Shown here: positions 1,343 through 16,899 of the stretch, piece after piece
Layout of the letters: the number at the start of each line of letters is the position of its first letter
Numbering within the stretch: the first letter of the stretch is position 1
The notes under the pieces: generated by a model
Told to the model about the DNA's origin: nothing
The model's database searches: none
Seen by the model: only the letters and a program-made list of their open reading frames with translations
Position numbers and translations under genes: made by a program
Assembly (NCBI GenBank): GCA_014653835.1
Contig: JACWDY010000004.1
Span: 1 to 64,000, forward strand
Length of the DNA stretch: 64,000 nt
Reading direction: 5' to 3'
Origin: Pelagibacterales bacterium SAG-MED28
Lineage (GTDB): Bacteria > Pseudomonadota > Alphaproteobacteria > Pelagibacterales > Pelagibacteraceae

Positions 1343-3397
1343 ATGGCAGAACTTTTATTGGAACTTTATAGCGAGGAAATTCCTCCCCAACTGCAGATAG
1401 AAGCAAGATTCCAACTAAAACAATTTTTAGAAAACTCCTTCAAAGAAAATCATCTAAAATTTAAAGATTTAACGGTCTATTCCTCACCTACAAGACTTAC
1501 TCTTTATGTAAAAAATCTGAGTGAAAAAATTCAAATTGACGCAAAAGAGATCAAAGGACCTAAGGTAGGTTCTCCTGATCAAGTTTTACAAGGTTTTATA
1601 AAAGCAAAGAGTGTTTCAGAAAAAGATTTAATTGAAAAAGAAACCGAAAAAGGAAAATTTTTTTTTATCAAAACGCAACCTCAAGAAATTTTAACAGAAG
1701 AATTATTAAAAAAAATTGTTCCAAAGGCAATTGGATCTATTAACTGGAAAAGATCAATGAGGTGGTCTGATTATAATCTAATGTGGGGAAGACCCTTAAG
1801 ATCTATATTTGCAAGGTTTAACAACAATAAGCTTTTGTTTAAATTCGACCATTTAGAAACAAATGATGAAGTTATTATTGAGCAAGACTTAATCATAAAA
1901 ACTAAAAAAATTAAAAACTTTGCAGAATATTTGGCCTTTTTAAAAAGTCACGAAATCATTGTTGATCATGAAGAAAGAGAGAAAATTATTCTCAAAAAAA
2001 TTAATTCTGTAGCTAAAGCAAAACAATATAAAGAGCACTTAAATTCAAAACTTTTAGAAGAAGTTGTTAATATTGTAGAAGATCCAAATTTACTTCTTGT
2101 AAATTTTAATAAAGATTACTTAAAGATACCTCAAGAAATTATTATTTCAACTTTAGAAAAAAATCAAAGATATTTCCCAATTTTTGATAGCAGAGATCGA
2201 TTAACGAATTATTTTTTTGTAATAGCAAATAAAAAAGACGAAAAAAAGCTTATTACCGAGGGAAATAAAAGAGTTGTTGAAGCAAGATTAGCTGATGCTA
2301 AATTTTTTTGGGACAAAGATAGATCTAAAAATTTAATTAAACAAATTGGAAATTTAAAATCTATTACCTTCTATGAAAAAATTGGAACTATCTATGACAA
2401 AACACAACGATTAAGACAATTAGCTGGATTACTATCAGATGATTTGAATATTAATAAAGAAAAAGTTCAAATCGCAGCATCTATATCTAAATCTGATTTA
2501 TGTTCTGATTTGGTTGGAGAATATCCCGAGCTTCAAGGTGTAATGGGAAAATATTTTGCTTTAGCACAAGGATTTGAAGAAGACGTTGCCAATTCAGTTA
2601 GTGATCATTATCTACCTACCGGATTAACCTCAGCCTTACCCAAGAAACCTTTTAGCTATTCCATCTCTATTGTAGATAAAATTGATACTCTCGTTGGATT
2701 CTTTGTTATAGATGAAAAACCAACTAGCTCGAAAGATCCTTTCGCATTAAGAAGAGCTGCGATTGGATTACTCAGAGTTATAATTGAAAACAAATTATCA
2801 TTTAAACTTAGAGACTTAATCAACTATGCTATAAGACTTTACGATGAGCAAGGTGTTGAAATAAAAAATAAAAAAACTGAACACGAGGTTCTAGATTTTA
2901 TTAAAGAAAGAATGCGCAATGTCTTAAAATTAAGAAATATTAAGACAGATATTATAGAAGCTTCAGTGAGTTCACACGCAGGAGACAATTTTTTAGATTT
3001 ATATACAAAAACAATTTTAATAAATAAATATAAACATAAAGAAATTGGCCTTAATGCTATTAGTACTTATAAAAGAGCAGCAAACATCTTAGAAAAGGCT
3101 GACAAAGGAATCACGGGAAGACCCGACGCTGTATTATTTAGAAAAGATGAAGAAAAAATACTTCATGAAAAAATTAACGAGATTCGAAAAGCTTTTACGG
3201 TAAAAGATGATAATAAAGACTACGAAAGCTTGTTGATAAAGCTTTCTGACACTAAGGAGTCTACAGATAATTTTTTTGACAATGTGGTTGTAAATGATGA
3301 AAATAAAGATATTAAAAATAATCGCTTAGAATTGCTAAAAATGTTTTGTAATACTTTTGATAATTTTATCGATTTTTCAAAATTAGAGGGATTATAA
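1343..3397 (+). CDS. glyS: glycyl-tRNA synthetase beta subunit
   Basis: Beta subunit of heterotetrameric GlyRS, which binds the tRNA and is needed for aminoacylation with GlyQ. At 684 residues it is close to the usual 690 or so. The N-terminus (ELLLELYSEEIPPQ) is the classic GlyS opening and an HD-like core follows. The P-(T/S)-S-S-K-D-P-F-A-L-R-R-A block lies near residues 458-472, and a DALR-type anticodon-binding domain is at the C-terminus. It starts 4 bases after glyQ, and its TAA shares one base with the ATG of ppdK (TAATG), so the three genes form one transcription unit. Confidence 0.97.
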   Translation: MAELLLELYSEEIPPQLQIEARFQLKQFLENSFKENHLKFKDLTVYSSPTRLTLYVKNLSEKIQIDAKEIKGPKVGSPDQVLQGFIKAKSVSEKDLIEKETEKGKFFFIKTQPQEILTEELLKKIVPKAIGSINWKRSMRWSDYNLMWGRPLRSIFARFNNNKLLFKFDHLETNDEVIIEQDLIIKTKKIKNFAEYLAFLKSHEIIVDHEEREKIILKKINSVAKAKQYKEHLNSKLLEEVVNIVEDPNLLLVNFNKDYLKIPQEIIISTLEKNQRYFPIFDSRDRLTNYFFVIANKKDEKKLITEGNKRVVEARLADAKFFWDKDRSKNLIKQIGNLKSITFYEKIGTIYDKTQRLRQLAGLLSDDLNINKEKVQIAASISKSDLCSDLVGEYPELQGVMGKYFALAQGFEEDVANSVSDHYLPTGLTSALPKKPFSYSISIVDKIDTLVGFFVIDEKPTSSKDPFALRRAAIGLLRVIIENKLSFKLRDLINYAIRLYDEQGVEIKNKKTEHEVLDFIKERMRNVLKLRNIKTDIIEASVSSHAGDNFLDLYTKTILINKYKHKEIGLNAISTYKRAANILEKADKGITGRPDAVLFRKDEEKILHEKINEIRKAFTVKDDNKDYESLLIKLSDTKESTDNFFDNVVVNDENKDIKNNRLELLKMFCNTFDNFIDFSKLEGL

Positions 3398-6057
3398 TGG
3401 CAAAAGTCGTATTTAGTTTTGATGATAAATCTGCAAAAAAACTTAAGAATAAAAAAAATATTCTAGGTGGAAAAGGAGCTAATCTTGGTGAGATGGGTAG
3501 TCTAGGTTTACCAGTGCCTCCTGGATTTACTATTACAACTGATGTATGTGATCTTTTTTATAAAAACAAAAAAAAACTTCCTAAAAAAGTAATTAAAAAT
3601 ATTGAGTCTGAATTAAGAAATATTGAAAAGAAAACTAAAAAGAAATTTGGCGATCTTAAAAACCCTTTATTAGTATCAGTAAGATCAGGTGCAAGGATCT
3701 CAATGCCTGGAATGATGGATACTATTTTGAATTTAGGTCTAAATGATAAAACGGTCGAAGCTTTAAAAAGAAAGACAACTAACGGTAGATTTGCAAAAGA
3801 CAGTTACAGAAGATTTATTCAGATGTATAGCAATGTGGTTCTTAATGTTGAGGGTTACTTGTTTGAGGAGTTAATAGATAATTATAAGTTAACCAAAGGC
3901 GTCCTACTAGATACGGACCTAGATGAAAGCGATTGGGATGGATTAATTACAAATTTTAAAGAACTAGTAAAGAAAGAAAAAAAAATTAATTTTCCACAAG
4001 ATGTAAAAGAGCAATTACTTGGGGCAATTAATGCGGTATTTTTATCTTGGGATAGTCAAAGAGCTAAAACTTATAGAAAATTAAATCAAATTCCAGACCA
4101 CTGGGGCACAGCAGTTAATATACAAGCAATGGTATTTGGGAATATGGGCAATGATTGTTCGACTGGAGTTGCCTTTACGAGAAATCCTTCAACAGGGGAA
4201 AATTCTTTTTTTGGAGAATATTTAATTAATGCACAAGGAGAAGATGTTGTGGCTGGAACAAGAACACCTCAATACATTACAAAAAAAGCTAAACAAGATG
4301 CGGGCTCAAATGATCCATCAATGGAAGAGGCTATGCCTAAGGTTTATAAAGAGTTGGCAAAAGTATTTCTTAAATTAGAAAAACATTACAAAGACATGCA
4401 AGACATTGAATTTACAGTCGAGAGTAATAAGCTATGGATGTTACAAACGAGATCAGGAAAAAGAACTGCAAAAGCCGCAATAAAAATTGCAGTAGATATG
4501 GTAAAAGAAAAATTGATATCTAAAAAAGAAGCAATCCAAAGAATAGATCCCAATACTTTAGATACTTTATTACATCCTACTTTGGATGATAAAGTTAAAA
4601 AAGAAGTGATTGCATCAGGGTTACCAGCATCACCAGGAGCGGCGAGTGGTAAAGTTGTTTTTACTGCTGATGAAGCAGAAAAACTAAATGGTATGATGCA
4701 AGATACGATATTGGTTAGGTTAGAAACTTCACCTGAAGATATTCACGGTATGCATGCAGCTAAAGGAATTTTAACAGCAAGAGGAGGAATGACAAGTCAT
4801 GCAGCTGTTGTAGCAAGAGGCATGGGAAGACCGTGTGTGTCTGGATCAAGTGAAATTACAATTGATTATGAAAGTAAACAATTTAAAGCAGGTGAAGAAA
4901 TTATAAAAGAAGGTGATATCATAACTATCGATGGCGGTAGCGGAAAAATTATGAAAGGTTTAGTGCCAACAGTTCAGCCGGAAATTTCTGGTTATTTTTC
5001 TACAATCATGAAATGGGCTGATGAGTTTAGAAAATTAAAAGTCAGAACCAATGCCGAGACAGAAACTGATAGTAAAACAGCAAGAGAATTTGGCGCAGAA
5101 GGAATAGGTTTATGTCGAACTGAACATATGTTTTTTGATGAAGAAAGAATTTTATCTGTAAGACAAATGATTTTATCAAGATCTAAAGAAGATAGAGATA
5201 GCGCTTTAGAAAAATTATTACCACACCAAAAAGATGATTTTAAAAAAATATTTAACATCATGTCAGGATTGCCAGTAACTGTTAGATTATTAGATCCACC
5301 TTTACATGAATTTTTACCAAAAACAGATAAAGATATAGATGAAGTTGCTAGATCATTAAATTTAGCAGCTAAAGAAGTAAAAGATAGAATTGCTGAACTT
5401 CATGAGGAAAATCCTATGCTAGGGCACAGAGGATGTAGATTAGGCATTTCTTTTCCCGAAATTTATGAAATGCAATGTGAAGCAATTTTTAAAGCTTTAA
5501 TCGAACTTAAAAAATCAAAAAGCAAATCAGCTTTTGTTGAGATCATGATACCTCTTGTTTCAACAGATACTGAATTGAAAATATTAAGAGAGCTGGTTAA
5601 TAGAACTGCTAAAAAAATTGAGACAGAAAATAAAATCAAATTAGAATATATGGTTGGAACTATGATTGAACTTCCAAGAGCTGCCTTACAGGCTAAGTCA
5701 ATTTCTAAATACGCTGATTTTTTTAGCTTTGGAACAAATGATTTAACACAAACTACTTTAGGAATAAGCCGGGACGACTCTGGTAAGTTTTTAAATGATT
5801 ATATTGATAATAAGATATTTGATGTTGATCCATTTGTAAGTATTGACCAAAGTGGAGTAGGTGAACTAGTTGAACTCGCTTCTACAAGGGGAAGAAAAGT
5901 TAATAAGAAACTTAAATTAGGAATCTGCGGTGAGCATGGTGGAGATCCTAAAAGTATAGAATTCTGCTCTAAAACAGGTCTAGATTATGTTTCTTGTTCT
6001 CCATTTAGAGTACCAGTTGCAAGACTTTCTGCTGCCCAAGCAGAACTAAGAAAATAA
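3397..6057 (+). CDS. ppdK: pyruvate, phosphate dikinase
   Basis: Interconverts pyruvate + ATP + Pi and PEP + AMP + PPi, supplying PEP for gluconeogenesis or running in the glycolytic direction. It is full length at 886 residues. The ATP-grasp nucleotide-binding domain opens with GGKGANLGEMGSLGLPVPPG near residues 25-44. The swivelling phosphohistidine domain has GGMTSHAAVVARGMG with the phospho-accepting His468. The C-terminal PEP/pyruvate barrel includes GLCRTEHMFF near 570-579 and the terminal CGEHGGDP and SCSPFRVPVARL blocks that hold the catalytic cysteine region. It overlaps the glyS stop by one base. No terminator is visible in the following 140 bases. Confidence 0.97.
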   Translation: MAKVVFSFDDKSAKKLKNKKNILGGKGANLGEMGSLGLPVPPGFTITTDVCDLFYKNKKKLPKKVIKNIESELRNIEKKTKKKFGDLKNPLLVSVRSGARISMPGMMDTILNLGLNDKTVEALKRKTTNGRFAKDSYRRFIQMYSNVVLNVEGYLFEELIDNYKLTKGVLLDTDLDESDWDGLITNFKELVKKEKKINFPQDVKEQLLGAINAVFLSWDSQRAKTYRKLNQIPDHWGTAVNIQAMVFGNMGNDCSTGVAFTRNPSTGENSFFGEYLINAQGEDVVAGTRTPQYITKKAKQDAGSNDPSMEEAMPKVYKELAKVFLKLEKHYKDMQDIEFTVESNKLWMLQTRSGKRTAKAAIKIAVDMVKEKLISKKEAIQRIDPNTLDTLLHPTLDDKVKKEVIASGLPASPGAASGKVVFTADEAEKLNGMMQDTILVRLETSPEDIHGMHAAKGILTARGGMTSHAAVVARGMGRPCVSGSSEITIDYESKQFKAGEEIIKEGDIITIDGGSGKIMKGLVPTVQPEISGYFSTIMKWADEFRKLKVRTNAETETDSKTAREFGAEGIGLCRTEHMFFDEERILSVRQMILSRSKEDRDSALEKLLPHQKDDFKKIFNIMSGLPVTVRLLDPPLHEFLPKTDKDIDEVARSLNLAAKEVKDRIAELHEENPMLGHRGCRLGISFPEIYEMQCEAIFKALIELKKSKSKSAFVEIMIPLVSTDTELKILRELVNRTAKKIETENKIKLEYMVGTMIELPRAALQAKSISKYADFFSFGTNDLTQTTLGISRDDSGKFLNDYIDNKIFDVDPFVSIDQSGVGELVELASTRGRKVNKKLKLGICGEHGGDPKSIEFCSKTGLDYVSCSPFRVPVARLSAAQAELRK

Positions 6058-6142
6058 TTTACAATGTATTTTATTTGGTCTAAAATGAACTTAAGTCTTA
6101 AGAAATAAAAAATAGAATAAATATAAAAAATTTTAAAACTAT

Positions 6143-6171
6143 ATTGCGAAAACCAGGTGTATCTGCGCAAT
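6143..6171. repeat. short inverted repeat upstream of the glycine-rich protein gene
   Basis: ATTGCG (6143-6148) and CGCAAT (6166-6171) form a 6-bp stem around a 17-base loop, 28 bases before the likely ATG at 6199. It could be a leader hairpin or an operator. There is no T-run, so it is not an intrinsic terminator for ppdK. The palindromic CTTAAG lies nearby (about 6090-6102). Function is unknown. Confidence 0.25.
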
Positions 6172-6198
6172 AAGAACATTATTTTAGGACATATTAAT

Positions 6199-8370
6199 AT
6201 GCTTAATAAATTATTAATCATTTACTTCTTTTTTTTAGGAAATTTTTTATTCACAATATTAAAAGCTGAAGATAAAACATTTAGTTACACCGGCTCATTA
6301 CAAACTTGGACTGTTCCAGATGGAGTTAGCTCGATAGAAGTTGATGGTTATGGAGGAATGGGAGGTCACGGATCTAGTTCGTGGAATGGGCGTGGTGGAT
6401 TTGGGGGAAGATTACAAGCAACAATAAGTGTAACTGCAGGTGACACAATTAATATTTATGTTGGTGAAAAGGGAGGAAACACTACGGTTGCAGGAGGAAC
6501 GACTTACGAACCAGTACATAATCCATGGACAGTAGGAGATGCTGAAGGTGGATGGAACGGAGGAGGTGACCCCGGAAATACCAACAATGGCGGTGGTGGC
6601 GGTGGTGCAACCGACATAAGAATTGGTGGTACTGCTCTTTCAGATAGAGTTTATGTAGCTGGCGGTGGTGGTGGTGGAGGTGTTCAAAGAAGATCATCAC
6701 AACCTGGTGGTGACGGTGGCCATGGAGGCGGAACTACTGGAGCAAATGGATCAACAGGAGGAGCTGGTGGAACTAATCAAAGTGATAGCAGTTTAACAAG
6801 AGGACCTAATGGTCATGGAAATTCTGGAGCAACCGGAGGAAGTGGTGGAGGTTCTTCTGCGGGAGGCTCAGGAGGAAGTATTCGAGGCACTGATGGCGCT
6901 TTGGGATTAGGAGGAACAGGCGGAACATCAGGAAGAGCCGGCGGCGGAGGAGGCGGCGGTTATTATGGCGGCGGCGGAGGAGGAGACTCAAATGGTAGTG
7001 ATGCTGGCGGCGGCGGCGGTGGTGGCTCATCTTATTGTAGTGGTAGTTTGTGTTCAAGTGTAACTCATACTCAGGGTTATACAACAGCTAACAGCAATGG
7101 ATCCATAACTTTTACTTGGACTGCTGTAACTAGAACAGGGTATAAAGTCAGAATTACAGCTTCTTCATTAAATGGAATTTTAGAAATTTTAGAACAAATA
7201 AATACTAATGGCACCAACTCAACTCTTACATCTGCTCTAGATGATTTGACTGATGCACAATTAAAAGTAGCTGCTAAACAAATAAAAGGAATGACGATTC
7301 AAAAATCAATTGGCCAAAGTATAAAAAGTAATAATAGCTTTAAAAGAGCTATGACTGCAGCGATTAAAGGACCAAGCTTTGATCAACTAGTTCAAAATAA
7401 TTTTGCTAGTTTAAGTTTTGACGATGTTCAAAATTACTATAATCCTGGAGTAGAAAGAATAAATTTAACAAACGATTTTACTTTAAGTGATATTGCCAAT
7501 ATTTATTCAAAAAGAAATTTATTACAAATAGGAGCACCAGATAATTCATTTTATTTGAGAACTTTTGGTGGTCTAACTGATCAAGAAAAAGCTGGAGATG
7601 ATATTGGTTATGAGTCAACTACAGCTGGCTTTGTTTTTGGAAATCAAACTATTATCGATAATTTACAAGCAGGATGGGGATTAGGATTTTCAACAACAGG
7701 ATTAGATTACGACGAGGGCTATGGTTTAAATAATACTCACAGTTTACATGCTAACTTTTTTGCAAATAAAGAATATAGAAGGTTTGATACATCTTTAAAT
7801 TTAGGTTCATTTGTTTCTAAGAATAATTTAACAAGGAACGTTACTGAAGGAAGCACACAAACATTAAAGTCCGATAGGTATGAACTAGGTTTTGATTTAA
7901 CTGGAGGAATTTCAAAAAAGATAAATCTAGGTGGTTGGGTTTTAAATCCAACAGCTACAATTAATACTGCCTATGTTTTTCAAGATAATATTGATGAAAG
8001 TGGGGGAGATTTAGCTCTTAAAATCAAAACAGAAAATTTATTGCAAATCAAACCAGAATTAGGTTTTAATTTAGATAAAGTGTTTTCAAATAATGGCTTT
8101 GTTTCCAGAGGATTTAATCTTTCCCTTTTCGGGAGCGAAGAAAATAAATTAGATGGTGCAGACTCCAATGCTACAATTAAAGATACAGGTGACAGTTATA
8201 CTTTAACAGAAAATAAAAAAAGAGATCAATTTGTTACTGCAGGATTGGGATATTCTTCTATAAATCAAAAAAATAACAGTCAATTTTTAATTAACGCTTT
8301 TGGCACACAAAATACAAGTAATGACATGAGCTCTTCTTTATTTTCTTTTACGTATAATAAAAAGTTTTAA
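6199..8370 (+). CDS. glycine-rich secreted protein with C-terminal autotransporter-like beta-barrel
   Basis: I chose ATG 6199 over the in-frame codon at 6157 because it opens directly into a signal peptide (MLNKLLII, a long Phe/Leu core, then LKA before ED near residue 23). Residues about 25-300 form a glycine-rich passenger beginning FSYTGSLQTWTVPDGVSSIEV, the opening of the Gly_rich domain family found on bacterial surface proteins, followed by many GGxGG and poly-Gly tracts. An alpha-helical linker (about 310-440) joins it to about 270 residues of alternating strands (from SFYLRTFGG near 449) ending ...FSFTYNKKF. A terminal Phe on a beta-strand is typical of outer-membrane barrels. I infer a type V-like surface protein; the ligand is unknown. 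Length is 723 residues. It converges on nadC with a 4-base stop overlap. Confidence 0.8.
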   Translation: MLNKLLIIYFFFLGNFLFTILKAEDKTFSYTGSLQTWTVPDGVSSIEVDGYGGMGGHGSSSWNGRGGFGGRLQATISVTAGDTINIYVGEKGGNTTVAGGTTYEPVHNPWTVGDAEGGWNGGGDPGNTNNGGGGGGATDIRIGGTALSDRVYVAGGGGGGGVQRRSSQPGGDGGHGGGTTGANGSTGGAGGTNQSDSSLTRGPNGHGNSGATGGSGGGSSAGGSGGSIRGTDGALGLGGTGGTSGRAGGGGGGGYYGGGGGGDSNGSDAGGGGGGGSSYCSGSLCSSVTHTQGYTTANSNGSITFTWTAVTRTGYKVRITASSLNGILEILEQINTNGTNSTLTSALDDLTDAQLKVAAKQIKGMTIQKSIGQSIKSNNSFKRAMTAAIKGPSFDQLVQNNFASLSFDDVQNYYNPGVERINLTNDFTLSDIANIYSKRNLLQIGAPDNSFYLRTFGGLTDQEKAGDDIGYESTTAGFVFGNQTIIDNLQAGWGLGFSTTGLDYDEGYGLNNTHSLHANFFANKEYRRFDTSLNLGSFVSKNNLTRNVTEGSTQTLKSDRYELGFDLTGGISKKINLGGWVLNPTATINTAYVFQDNIDESGGDLALKIKTENLLQIKPELGFNLDKVFSNNGFVSRGFNLSLFGSEENKLDGADSNATIKDTGDSYTLTENKKRDQFVTAGLGYSSINQKNNSQFLINAFGTQNTSNDMSSSLFSFTYNKKF

Positions 8371-9212
8371 TTAAACAATAAACTAGTATCGAATGATTTG
8401 GCGCTATGAGTTATAGCTCCTACAGAAATTCTATTAATTCCTGTATTAGATATTTTTTTAATATTTTTTAACTCGGTGTTTCCTGAGTATTCAGTTTCAT
8501 ATTTATTTTTACAAATTTTCAAACATTTTCTTAATTGTTTGGTGTTCATATTATCGAATAAAATTCTTTTAAATTTAAGTCCTAGTACTTGATTTAATTG
8601 CTTAAGACTCTCTATCTCAACCGTTACAATTTTTTTAGTCTTAACAGCTTTTTTTACTAAATTTTTTAAACTGTTCTCAGCACTTATATGATTATCTTTA
8701 ATTAATATTTCATCGCTAAGATTATATCTGTGGTTAAAGCCACCACCTTTTTTTACAGCATATTTTTCTAACTGTCTTAAATTTGGCGTTGTTTTTCTTG
8801 TACAACATATCTTAGTTTTTTTACTGGTTTTTTTTACAAATTTATTAGTTAATGTAGCGATACCTGAGGCATGATTAAGAAAGTTTAAAGCAGTTCTCTC
8901 AGCAGTTAAGATTGTTTTTGTTTTAGCTTTTATAATAGCAATTACCTTATTTTTTTTAATTTTCCTTCCATCAGAAACTTTCTTTGTAAAAGAGGTTTCT
9001 CTTCCAATTAATTTAAAAGCTGTTTTACAAAACTCTAAACCAGCTATTACACCATCTTGTTTAGCTATTATCCTAGCTTTAATAATTTTATTTTTTGTAC
9101 TAATGATGTTTGTAGTGATATCACCTCTCGGCCTCAAGTCTTCTTCAAGAGCTTTTCTTACAACTGATTTAATATAAAATTGATTTAATTTTTGCACTGA
9201 CCTAACGACCAA
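8367..9212 (-). CDS. nadC: nicotinate-nucleotide pyrophosphorylase (quinolinate phosphoribosyltransferase)
   Basis: Converts quinolinate and PRPP to nicotinate mononucleotide, CO2 and PPi, the step after NadA in NAD synthesis. Conserved blocks are ALEEDLRPRGDITTN near residues 21-35 and the long active-site run RKTTPN..R..K.A...GGG..HR near 138-161, which supplies substrate-binding Arg, Lys and His residues. ILIKDNH follows. The start is uncertain: the listed start is TTG at 9212, and GTG at 9197 (residue 6) is an alternative; neither has a clear ribosome binding site. The 5' end overlaps the nadA stop by 11 bases, indicating coupling. The aspartate-oxidising enzyme (NadB or a dehydrogenase) is not in the window. 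Confidence 0.94.
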   Translation of the reverse strand: MVVRSVQKLNQFYIKSVVRKALEEDLRPRGDITTNIISTKNKIIKARIIAKQDGVIAGLEFCKTAFKLIGRETSFTKKVSDGRKIKKNKVIAIIKAKTKTILTAERTALNFLNHASGIATLTNKFVKKTSKKTKICCTRKTTPNLRQLEKYAVKKGGGFNHRYNLSDEILIKDNHISAENSLKNLVKKAVKTKKIVTVEIESLKQLNQVLGLKFKRILFDNMNTKQLRKCLKICKNKYETEYSGNTELKNIKKISNTGINRISVGAITHSAKSFDTSLLFN

Positions 9213-10191
9213 TTTCGGTCATTCTTATTACAGATTTTCTTGCAGCCTCTATAGTTTTATTATCTAAAATAATTTCATTCGTATCATTTTCTAAACAATC
9301 TAATATTTTTTCTAAATTAATTTTTTTCATATAAGGACATAAATTACATGGTTTGATAAATGAAACATTTGGATTATCTGCTTCTACATTGTCGCTCATT
9401 GAACACTCAGTAACTAACATAACTTTTTTAGGCTGATTTTCTTTTACATATTTAATCATGCCTGAAGTTGAACCTGCAAAGTCTGACGCTTCTATAACAT
9501 CTGGTGGGCACTCTGGATGAGCAATAACTTTAATACCTGGATTTTGATTTTTAATATCTTCAATTTCTTTTCCAGTAAATTGTTCATGAACGATACAAGT
9601 TCCTTTCCAGGAAATAATTTTTACTTTTGTATTTTTAGCAACGTAGTCAGCTAAATATTGATCTGGTAAGAAAATAACTTTATCTACATTTAAAGACTCA
9701 ACAACTTTAACTGCATTTGCAGATGTGCAACAAACATCTGTCTCTGCCTTAACATCAGCAGATGTATTTACGTAGGATACAACTGGAACTCCTGGATATT
9801 TTTCTTTTAATAATCTTACATCTTTTCCAGTGATAGAACTTGCTAGAGAGCAACCAGCTTGCATATCAGGTATAAATACTTTTTTAGTTGGGTTCATCAG
9901 TTTTGCTGTTTCTGCCATGAAATGAACCCCGCACATAATAATTTTATCAGCAGATGTTTTAGCCGCCTCTACAGCTAAGGCTAAAGAGTCTGCTGCGATA
10001 TCTGCTACACCGTGATAAATTTCTGGTGTTTGATAATTATGGGCAAGAATAATTGCATTTTTTTCTTTTTTTAGTTTATTAATCTTCTCTATTAGCGGGA
10101 CATGAATTTTCCACTCAGCTTCAGGAATGAATTTAGATATTTTTTTATAAATATCTTGTGAATTCGTTATATTCTGTTGTTGTGCAGACAT
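9202..10191 (-). CDS. nadA: quinolinate synthase
   Basis: An oxygen-sensitive [4Fe-4S] enzyme that condenses iminoaspartate with dihydroxyacetone phosphate to quinolinate. Its 329 residues fit the NadA family. AIILAHNYQTPEI near residues 46-58 is the conserved first-domain motif. Cys114 (MQAGCS), Cys199 (WKGTCIVHEQF) and Cys285 (NLCPYM) sit with the spacing of the three cluster ligands; this assignment rests on family spacing. It is first in the nadA-nadC operon. The 212-base gap upstream holds tRNA-Leu and the divergent promoter of the 10404 gene. Confidence 0.96.
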   Translation of the reverse strand: MSAQQQNITNSQDIYKKISKFIPEAEWKIHVPLIEKINKLKKEKNAIILAHNYQTPEIYHGVADIAADSLALAVEAAKTSADKIIMCGVHFMAETAKLMNPTKKVFIPDMQAGCSLASSITGKDVRLLKEKYPGVPVVSYVNTSADVKAETDVCCTSANAVKVVESLNVDKVIFLPDQYLADYVAKNTKVKIISWKGTCIVHEQFTGKEIEDIKNQNPGIKVIAHPECPPDVIEASDFAGSTSGMIKYVKENQPKKVMLVTECSMSDNVEADNPNVSFIKPCNLCPYMKKINLEKILDCLENDTNEIILDNKTIEAARKSVIRMTEIGR

Positions 10192-10252
10192 ACTAATTCC
10201 AATTTACCAACTTGTGGTTAAATTGTCATTCCTTTATTGTCGCATAATTATT

Positions 10253-10336
10253 GCGGTCGTGCTGAAATTGGTAGACAGGCACGCTTGAGGGGCGTGTGGG
10301 TTTCCCGTGAGAGTTCGAGTCTCTCCGACCGCACCA
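10253..10336 (+). tRNA. tRNA-Leu (anticodon GAG)
   Basis: Complete 84-base class II tRNA with an encoded CCA. The acceptor stem is GCGGTCG (10253-10259) with CGACCGC (10326-10332), discriminator A, then CCA 10334-10336. The anticodon stem CACGC/GCGTG (10280-10284/10292-10296) encloses loop TTGAGGG with anticodon GAG at 10287-10289. A short variable arm (GGG TTT CCC) and the T arm GAGAG-TTCGAGT-CTCTC follow. It reads CUC and, by wobble, CUU leucine codons. It lies alone between divergent nadA and the 10404 gene. Confidence 0.97.
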
Positions 10337-10368
10337 TTACTAGGGTATTTTTACATAATTTCTATATT

Positions 10369-10397
10369 TTGGACTTCACTGATAAAAAGTATTAACT
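10369..10397 (+). promoter_or_regulatory. predicted sigma70-type promoter for the hydratase gene
   Basis: TTGGAC (10369-10374), a 17-base spacer, then TTAACT (10392-10397). Only six bases (AGTTTT) separate the -10 from the ATG at 10404. Transcription would therefore start at or next to the A of the start codon, giving a leaderless mRNA. The same layout precedes the next gene. Confidence 0.5.
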
Positions 10398-10403
10398 AGT
10401 TTT

Positions 10404-11186
10404 ATGTCTCAACTAACAAGAAAAGAAATAGATTTATTTTCTAAAAAAATATTAGAAGATTATGATGCAAATAATCCAAGTACAATTTTTAAAGATAAGA
10501 TGAAAATTAATAACTCGGATGCTTTAATAATACAATCAACAGTTACCAAATTAAGAGAAAAAAGAGGTGAAGAGATAATAGGATTTAAAATAGGATGTGT
10601 ATTAAAAGAAACTCAAAAAAAAATGGGTTTTACCCAACCAGCTTGGGGCACTCTTTGGAAAAAAGAACTTTATCAAAATGGAGTTGTGTTAAATAAAAAA
10701 AATTATTCAAACCCAGCAATGGAAGCGGAATTTGGAATTACATTAAATCGAAATATAGATCCTAAATTAGTAACTCCAGAATATATATTTAAATCAATTG
10801 AATCTATATATCCTCTAATAGAAATTCATAACCTTGTATTTCACGGAGAGGCTCCTCATGGTTCTGAGCTTTTGGCAAATAATGCAATTCATGCCGGTAT
10901 TGTTTTGGGCCCAGAAAATAAATTACCTAAAAGTGATCAAGTAACAGATTTAAAATTACTTTATGATAAAAAAATAGTTGATGCATGGGAGAATAAGATA
11001 TGGCCCAAAGATATTTTATCTGAAATAGAATGGTTAGTAAAAGAACAATCTAAAATTAATAATATATTAAAAAAAGGTAATTTAATTTTGACAGGAGCAT
11101 ATGGATTTCCTGTTCCAATAAATGAAAAAAAATTAATTGAAGTTACCTCATCTGCATTTGGTAACGCACGAGCAAATTTTATTTAA
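10404..11186 (+). CDS. 2-keto-4-pentenoate hydratase / 4-oxalocrotonate decarboxylase family protein
   Basis: A 260-residue member of the MhpD/XylJ/HpaH hydratase-decarboxylase branch of the fumarylacetoacetase-like fold. These enzymes hydrate 2-hydroxy-dienoates or decarboxylate oxalocrotonate in aromatic meta-cleavage pathways. GFKIGCVLKETQKKMGFTQP near residues 60-79 is the conserved N-terminal segment. Glu107 and Glu109 (in PAMEAEFGI) and Glu140 (PLIEIHN) are in place as the divalent-metal ligands. No other meta-cleavage gene lies nearby, so the substrate is open. It is divergent from nadA. No ribosome binding site is visible, in keeping with the leaderless promoter. Confidence 0.82.
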   Translation: MSQLTRKEIDLFSKKILEDYDANNPSTIFKDKMKINNSDALIIQSTVTKLREKRGEEIIGFKIGCVLKETQKKMGFTQPAWGTLWKKELYQNGVVLNKKNYSNPAMEAEFGITLNRNIDPKLVTPEYIFKSIESIYPLIEIHNLVFHGEAPHGSELLANNAIHAGIVLGPENKLPKSDQVTDLKLLYDKKIVDAWENKIWPKDILSEIEWLVKEQSKINNILKKGNLILTGAYGFPVPINEKKLIEVTSSAFGNARANFI

Positions 11187-16128: not shown

Positions 16129-16899
16129 ATGAGTAAATTTAAAACGCTTGCACTAGCAGCCGTAGCCGTATTAGGTTTAACAGGCGCAGCTAATGCAGCA
16201 ACCCCAATGCTTGAGACAGGAGATTTCGTAGGAATATCTTTCTGGCTTGTGTCTATGGGAATGATTGCAACTACAGTATTCTTTTTTGCAGAGAGAAACA
16301 CAGTAGCTGCTTCTTGGAGAACATCTTTAACGGTAGCCGGACTTGTAACTGGTGTTGCATTCGTGCACTACATGTACATGAGAGATGTTTGGGTGACTAC
16401 AGGTGATACACCAACAGTATACAGATATATTGATTGGTTAATCACAGTGCCACTTCAAATGATTGAATTCTATCTAATCTTGGCAGCTGTAAGAAAAGTG
16501 CCAACTTCTATATTCTGGAAGCTATTAATTGGTTCATTAGTAATGTTAATCGGTGGTTACCTAGGTGAAGCTGGTTACATACAACCATTTGTAGGTTTCG
16601 TAATTGGAATGGCTGGATGGATTTACATCTTGTTTGAAATATTCTCAGGTGAAGCGGGACAATTAGCAGCAAAAGCTGGTAATAAGTCAATGACTACTGC
16701 TTTCAGTGCTATGAGAATAATCGTAACAATCGGTTGGGCGATTTATCCTTTAGGATATATTTTCGGTTACCTAACTGGTGGTGTTGATGCAAATGCTTTA
16801 AACATAATTTACAATTTAGCTGACTTTGTTAACAAGATCGCTTTTGGTCTAGTTATCTGGGCAGCAGCAATGCAAAACACAAGATTAGCATCTAGATAA
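16129..16899 (+). CDS. proteorhodopsin, light-driven proton pump (blue-tuned type)
   Basis: A seven-helix retinal protein of 256 residues that pumps protons out of the cell in light. A signal-like N-terminus (to about residue 23, ANAATP) precedes helix A. Numbering runs five ahead of the reference green proteorhodopsin. The retinal Schiff-base lysine is Lys236 (FVNKIAFGLV), the primary acceptor Asp102 and donor Glu113 are present, as are Arg99, His80 and Asp232. The tuning position (105 in the reference) is Gln110 in TVPLQMIEFYL; glutamine there is the established marker of blue absorption. The acceptor/donor carboxylates indicate a proton pump, not a sodium or chloride pump. It has its own leader and terminator and is probably monocistronic. 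Retinal-synthesis genes are not in the window. Confidence 0.97.
   Translation: MSKFKTLALAAVAVLGLTGAANAATPMLETGDFVGISFWLVSMGMIATTVFFFAERNTVAASWRTSLTVAGLVTGVAFVHYMYMRDVWVTTGDTPTVYRYIDWLITVPLQMIEFYLILAAVRKVPTSIFWKLLIGSLVMLIGGYLGEAGYIQPFVGFVIGMAGWIYILFEIFSGEAGQLAAKAGNKSMTTAFSAMRIIVTIGWAIYPLGYIFGYLTGGVDANALNIIYNLADFVNKIAFGLVIWAAAMQNTRLASR

Follow-up and report, generated by a model that had tools for sequence, protein, structure and literature searches.

The window, that is, the whole 64,000-nucleotide stretch of DNA analysed here, comes from contig JACWDY010000004.1 of Pelagibacterales bacterium SAG-MED28, a marine bacterium whose very small genome lies in 42 contigs and is 89.3% complete. A preliminary description of this DNA placed a protein with a passenger and an outer-membrane-type barrel in a SAR11-type host, and the named relatives of the source genome are indeed Pelagibacteraceae (SAR11-type). 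The gene lies in a slot between two genes that look like ppdK and nadC. The features of the locus are as follows.

3397-6057, forward strand: ppdK-like gene, left border of the slot (open reading frame).
6058-6198, forward strand: intergenic region before the gene, different from one passenger type to another (alignment of eight upstream regions).
6199-8370, forward strand: autotransporter gene, an open reading frame of 723 amino acids whose translation ends in YNKKF and a stop.
6199-6267, forward strand: N-terminal signal-peptide-like segment, residues 1-23 (hydrophobic in translation; helix at residues 2-16 in the model, at low pLDDT).
6268-7122, forward strand: passenger, an ALK/LTK-type TNF-like plus glycine-rich domain (GRD), residues 24-308 (PF12810; PDB profile match; Foldseek and VIA-align).
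7123-7509, forward strand: linker predicted to be helical, about residues 309-437 (helices assigned by DSSP in the model, at low pLDDT; homologous stretch in sibling genes).
7276-7293, forward strand: putative recombination breakpoint, residues 360-365 (informative sites, permutations, siblings as controls).
7510-8367, forward strand: autotransporter beta-barrel at the C-terminus, with Phe as its last residue, about residues 438-723 (PF03797; sibling identity; structural matches to outer-membrane barrels).
8367-9212, reverse strand: nadC-like gene, right border of the slot (open reading frame).

Read as an open reading frame, the gene also has an alternative GTG start upstream, which would give 737 amino acids. 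At the right-hand junction, the stop of the nadC-like gene overlaps that of the autotransporter gene. The passenger had been described as locally richer in G and C than its surroundings, and this was confirmed: GC is 0.51-0.55 in 300-base windows at 6550-7149 vs 0.25-0.40 in those of 4000-10899 that are clear of 6250-7149. The third-position GC of non-Gly codons is ordinary, however (0.20 in the Gly-rich part, 0.18 in ppdK and 0.15 in the barrel), so the GC spike reflects amino-acid composition and not foreign codon bias. Elsewhere in the window, an open reading frame at 16129-16899 looks proteorhodopsin-like by eye.

On sequence homology, the passenger is a member of a known domain family, PF12810, the ALK/LTK glycine-rich domain, which consists of a TNF-like beta-sandwich and Gly-rich strands. 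A Pfam search with the whole protein matched PF12810 at residues 50-301 (E 1.2e-7, 32.4 bits vs a cut-off of 24.5), and the family was matched by 6/6 SAR11 copies at E up to 0.01. When a profile of these six copies was compared with the PDB, eight ALK/LTK sequences were recovered with E values from 4.5e-8 to 4.2e-7 (ALK 7lrz, 4.5e-8; LTK 7nx0, 1.4e-7); the single-sequence search gave a marginal LTK match (E 0.0028). PF12810 is sparse across the class, being found in 2/289 genomes including the source genome; in the other (G714) it belongs to a long protein that, by eye, is built differently. No NCBIfam match was obtained with the protein, and the five PHROGs families matched are all of unknown function.

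The AlphaFold2 model of the whole protein is of low confidence (mean pLDDT 48, pTM 0.35), and its quality is uneven. The sandwich strands are modelled at pLDDT about 80, with such values at residues 21-50, 71-90 and 301-310, and the polyglycine part lies below 50 across residues 161-274. Using VIA-align, residues 24-310 of this low-confidence model superimpose on LTK 7nx1 (Z 13.3, rmsd 3.4 A, 179 residues aligned) and residues 22-308 on ALK 7lir (Z 14.1, rmsd 4.3, 188 aligned). In Foldseek the model matches ALK (E 1e-4) and the barrel of BrkA (E 2.2e-4) best, with query-normalised TM-scores of 0.12-0.23 among the matches listed. Since the model is poor at residues 161-274, the polyglycine part is assigned from sequence homology.

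The C-terminal part is an autotransporter beta-domain by Pfam (PF03797 at residues 452-687, E 6.3e-22, 79 bits vs a cut-off of 26), and its last residue is Phe, aromatic as in type Va autotransporters. Thus the open reading frame and both Pfam assignments agree with the 723-residue protein first described, a Gly-rich passenger joined to a barrel ending in Phe. The helical linker of that description also appears, as DSSP helices in the low-confidence model. Structure prediction had been proposed as a check on the barrel, and in the pLDDT 48 model this region does resemble outer-membrane barrels (EspP, BrkA, CymA). The barrel half matches EspP 8bnz with Z 14.7 (rmsd 5.4, 250 aligned) and the porin CymA with Z 15.4; because porins and autotransporters are matched alike, the autotransporter class is taken from Pfam only. 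A trimeric (type Vc) autotransporter was also considered and rejected: there is no YadA-like anchor, and PF03797 and PF12810 are the only Pfam matches at E up to 10.

Homologues of the gene were sought in a named genome collection, where nine loci matched. Seven of these (L009-L015) lie at the same ppdK-nadC junction as the window gene; the L014 contig ends at the nadC side, and a nadC fragment was found in the same contig. Across linker and barrel these siblings are 84-87% identical to the window protein (89.8-91.8% for the barrels), and their passenger region has no match to it, with 27-32% identity under forced global alignment. The sibling passengers themselves fall into groups (L010/L011/L012, 89-96% identical; L013/L014, 90%; L009/L015, 59%), with 35-52% identity across groups. 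The L010 passenger, on a barrel that closely matches that of the window, models as a beta-helix at residues 34-301 (5ny0, Z 16.5, rmsd 3.4, 244 aligned; pLDDT 51 model) and also matches the Fap2 autotransporter 9qe7 (Z 13.9, low-confidence model). The other sibling passengers have repeats of L010-like look, by eye only.

Exchange of passengers may also extend across genera. Between L010 and L011, which come from genomes of two genera (G029 and G264), ppdK is 78.0%, nadC 83.7% and nadA 77.8% identical, yet the passengers are 95.9% identical, and dS is 0.10 for the passenger vs 0.42 for the barrel. These values point to passenger transfer between genera. Separately, L010 and L016 occupy different loci and have passengers that are 66% identical, and the L016 barrel is ~40% identical to that of the window; this is possibly a second passenger transfer, judging by the sequences.

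Homologues carrying both parts of the window protein do exist: L048 in genome G364, and L008, the one near full-length relative in the named collection (68% identical), which lies at another locus beside a carB-like gene. The nearest GRD to the window passenger is that of L008 (73% identical), and none of the siblings has an equivalent of the window passenger. In the linker and barrel, which all of them share, 288 nucleotide sites are informative. L008-like states occupy 34/47 of these to the left of residues 360/365 and 14/241 to the right, giving a maximum chi-square of 125 at residues 360/365 that was reached by 0/5000 permutations, under a null that treats sites as exchangeable. As a control, the seven siblings were each used as query with L008 as donor, and the maximum chi-square was 2.5-26.8. 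With L016, L050 and L048 as donors, the window break fell at the same place, though fewer of the left-hand sites were donor-like in proportion (14/25, 8/21 and 20/35; 0/1000 permutations each). Since several donors give the same break, the left part is foreign to the siblings, and L008 is only its nearest known relative. Weaker breaks were seen among the siblings for L013 and L014 with L048 (0/1000 and 1/1000 permutations) and for L012 with L008 (8/1000); the L012 break lies near the end of the barrel, where a further exchange is possible.

On this sequence comparison the window gene looks mosaic, L008-nearest up to residue ~360 and like its own locus from ~365. Among the genomes searched, only the window genome has a GRD at the ppdK-nadC locus. 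The join may be old, given that the nearest GRD is only 73% identical. At the carB-like junction, the autotransporter genes L008:5992-8148 and L050:5193-7523 stand in opposite orientations relative to carB, which suggests separate insertions or an inversion.

Occupancy of the ppdK-nadC junction was assessed at the 30 nadC loci most like that of the window, with a nadC match in 127/169 genomes. The gene is present at three of the 30; at the other 27, ppdK ends within about 50 nt of nadC and there is no barrel match. C-terminal remnants were found at the junction in three further genomes, L054 (5440-5529), L055 (5242-5307) and L056 (5623-5742), keeping the last 30, 22 and 40 codons, respectively, with different end points. 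The L055 remnant begins with 64 nt of the L010-L012-type upstream region (98% identical). The corresponding signal of origin is weak for L054 (18 nt) and for L056 (15 nt, which fits the coding end too), and the L056 end points share a short direct repeat. From their sequences, the three remnants look like separate deletions. A whole-protein search matched 7/200 relatives, including the source genome and two remnants, and a match was obtained in 23/397 genomes: strong barrels in 12, barrels at a greater distance in 6 (five of them within frames of >1,300 aa), remnants in 3 and weak matches in 2. Since many of the genomes are incomplete, these absences of the gene are bounds only.

The GRD also occurs on other secretion scaffolds. 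Copies were found in 6/397 genomes of the family and 7/397 of the order, together eight different genomes including the source. Three of these carry it on the same barrel group: the window, G281 (L008) and G364 (barrel 43% identical). The G233 copy (L045) is 89.3% identical to the L008 GRD in amino acids and 92.1% in nucleotides over 810 columns, yet the two barrels are only 23.8% identical. This nucleotide match begins inside the GRD, past the signal peptide, and no other nucleotide match between the two genes was found at E 1e-3. In G233 the GRD is followed by two Ig-like domains (PF13205) and then by a distant PF03797 barrel, which is 50% identical to its nearest found relatives, in G045 and G309. 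That the window and G233 barrels are unrelated was ruled out, as both are PF03797 and share a weak BLAST match (25% over 126 aa, E 0.003).

G229 encodes the GRD as part of a long protein that also has a two-partner secretion (TPS) domain (PF05860, E 1.7e-21) and adjoins a TpsB-type protein (PF03865, E 8e-20). G254 has a GRD 97% identical to that of G229 and a similar N-terminus, and the GRD proteins of G784 and G833 resemble that of G229 by eye only. Near purA-like and rpoH-like genes (L048, L047, L117), at what seems to be one junction, the GRD is carried on an autotransporter in G364 and on a TPS protein in G229 (apparently also in G833). The source genome has a second autotransporter on contig C23 (L105:232-2475; PF03797, E 1.1e-19), whose passenger has repeats that look propeller-like by eye, as in G045 and G309.

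These results are probably best explained by a type Va autotransporter that displays an exchangeable ALK/LTK-type recognition domain, joined by recombination to a resident barrel. Sequence comparison shows what this reading is built on: the assignment of both domains, the variety of passengers borne by one barrel at a single locus, the abrupt shift of affinity within the linker and the presence of the GRD on other scaffolds. The GRD would have been joined to the barrel resident at the locus through recombination near residue 360, inside the conserved helical linker. The protein would then be exported by Sec, the barrel would insert in the outer membrane and the passenger would pass to the outside of the cell, where the Gly-rich strands end in variable loops that may bind a ligand. 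The ALK/LTK fold serves recognition. From this analogy, and from display on a barrel, a conserved scaffold and wholesale replacement of the outer part, we infer export, display and binding of the passenger, with recognition or adhesion as its likeliest role.

Phage may be what drives this exchange, with the passenger serving as attachment site or decoy and swap or deletion as escape. As a sub-case of the exchangeable recognition domain, this is possible but somewhat unlikely. Whole-passenger replacement and remnants with different end points fit frequency-dependent selection, and domains of this Gly-rich kind occur in viral-collection contigs and, according to the relevant passages of PMC9608196, in the Pam3 fibre. 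There, gp24 has a related fold, with a Gly-rich stem and a variable tip proposed to bind the host receptor; against the low-confidence window model, Pam3 fibre 7ypx ranks 43 in Foldseek (E 0.019). However, neither GRD nor barrel matched any of 50,697 phage records (tblastn, E 1e-5), nor did the GRD match plasmid records at the same threshold, searches in which the low-complexity filter may hide Gly-rich matches. No viral contig was confirmed with the whole protein and the barrel profile. The GRD profile recovered 11 viral-collection loci at 32-59% identity in the best segment, none of them an obvious donor. Four viral-collection contigs (L066, L069, L072, L073) encode ALK/LTK-like Gly-rich domains, some in proteins that look phage-structural by eye. 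Moreover, the sparse presence of the gene equally fits niche-specific adhesion, as argued for another SAR11 autotransporter in passages of PMC12636525.

A quite improbable alternative treats the Gly-rich part as disordered and of low complexity, a spacer or masking coat that changes in length through slippage, its ALK/LTK likeness being compositional. The very high Gly content, the pLDDT below 50 at residues 161-274, the weak arrays reported by TRF and the marginal single-sequence LTK match are in keeping with it. Yet PF12810 was matched above cut-off, and in all six copies, with a match that includes non-Gly strand ends, and the three segments modelled at pLDDT about 80 align to LTK. The repeats are also unlike those expected from slippage. 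The passenger has five Gly runs of 6-7 residues, but no Gly codon occurs more than 4 times in succession; the top-scoring tandem array of the domain reaches 65% matches, and the remaining arrays are short (a 9-mer in 2.1-2.2 copies; TGG in 7.7 copies at 80%). The GRD measures 284, 281 and 282 aa in its three nearest copies and 248-308 aa in more distant ones, and across eight copies 57/86 Gly columns are invariant vs 16/143 non-Gly columns.

The preliminary description had proposed simple GGN repeats that expand and contract, giving strain variation in repeat length. The impure arrays and short codon runs speak against the first proposal, and the conserved Gly columns and the 281-284 aa lengths of the nearest copies against the second. 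Repeat slippage is thus rejected as the main source of variation. A phase-variable, simple-sequence contingency locus was rejected as well, there being no pure tandem repeat and little length difference among the three nearest copies. Instead, strain variation consists of whole-passenger replacement on a conserved barrel together with presence or absence of the whole gene. The same description suggested looking for positive selection; a crude test gave none, with dN/dS below 1 in 9/9 pairwise comparisons, the highest being for the L008/L045 GRD (0.080/0.178).

It is very improbable that the mosaic is an assembly or binning chimera. The source genome is fragmented and incomplete, and this passenger was seen at the locus in no other genome searched. 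But two joins would be needed, one after ppdK and one inside the gene, with the frame kept open; no known genome is a source of the left part, whose nearest GRD is only ~73% identical; and several other genomes show different passengers at the same locus. Least probable of all, to the point of being nearly negligible, is that no exchange occurred and that one old autotransporter family kept its barrels alike as its passengers diverged beyond recognition: passengers normally evolve faster than barrels, and the non-Gly passengers are 35-59% alike across groups, but the two modelled passengers match different folds, the L008 and L045 GRDs are 89% identical on barrels 24% identical, the L010/L011 passenger dS is below the barrel dS, and the break in the linker is sharp.

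Returning to the exchangeable recognition domain, we tentatively consider a wider reading, which may well not hold: SAR11 populations could share a pool of recognition modules that move as units, at few chromosomal junctions, between type V scaffolds (here two-partner secretion and two autotransporter barrel groups distant from each other). One of these modules would be the ALK/LTK-type domain, which selection on its binding partner, be it phage, particles or kin, would hold at low frequency. Costly surface proteins are considered few in SAR11 cells. Wholesale replacement of the outer part at one locus, with anchor and neighbours conserved, offers a handle on SAR11 surface variation and its causes, with bearing on phage escape and particle contact. 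The gene also combines a bacterial autotransporter with a recognition fold like that of an animal receptor.

Autotransporters have been noted in SAR11 before: the list for HVR1 of HTCC1062 includes three (PMC2217521, relevant passages), and a large coastal SAR11 autotransporter has been proposed as an adhesin (PMC12636525). In searches of open-licence papers, we found none on the combination of a GRD with an autotransporter or on passenger exchange in SAR11. The coastal protein resembles that of the window as a proposed adhesin of autotransporter type in Pelagibacteraceae, but its genes, as described in the relevant passages, are 5-9.5 kb long and lie beside type IV pilus and/or type II secretion genes; the term 'glycine-rich' does not occur in the text, and those passages do not treat passenger exchange.

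The ALK/LTK ectodomain is shared at the level of the PF12810 sequence profile and the modelled fold of residues 24-310. Unlike ALK and LTK, the window protein is bacterial, carries the domain before an outer-membrane barrel and has no kinase, and ALKAL-like ligands are not expected for it. The Gly-rich tail-fibre adhesins Pam3 gp24 and Salmonella phage S16 gp38 are alike in their Gly-rich stem and in variable tips proposed for receptor binding (PMC9608196, in part), but they are trimeric phage fibres, and the window protein has no direct match in phage records, with the filter caveat given above. With type Va autotransporters (PF03797; BrkA, EspP), the protein shares a C-terminal barrel, a Phe end, a predicted helical stretch before the barrel and an N-terminal passenger; it differs in that the passenger is Gly-rich with a predicted TNF-like fold and that siblings at the same locus carry other passengers. 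Modular variants such as Ag43, as presented in part of PMC10058404, likewise have modular passengers on type Va anchors, whereas at the window locus the passengers model as different folds on closely similar barrels.
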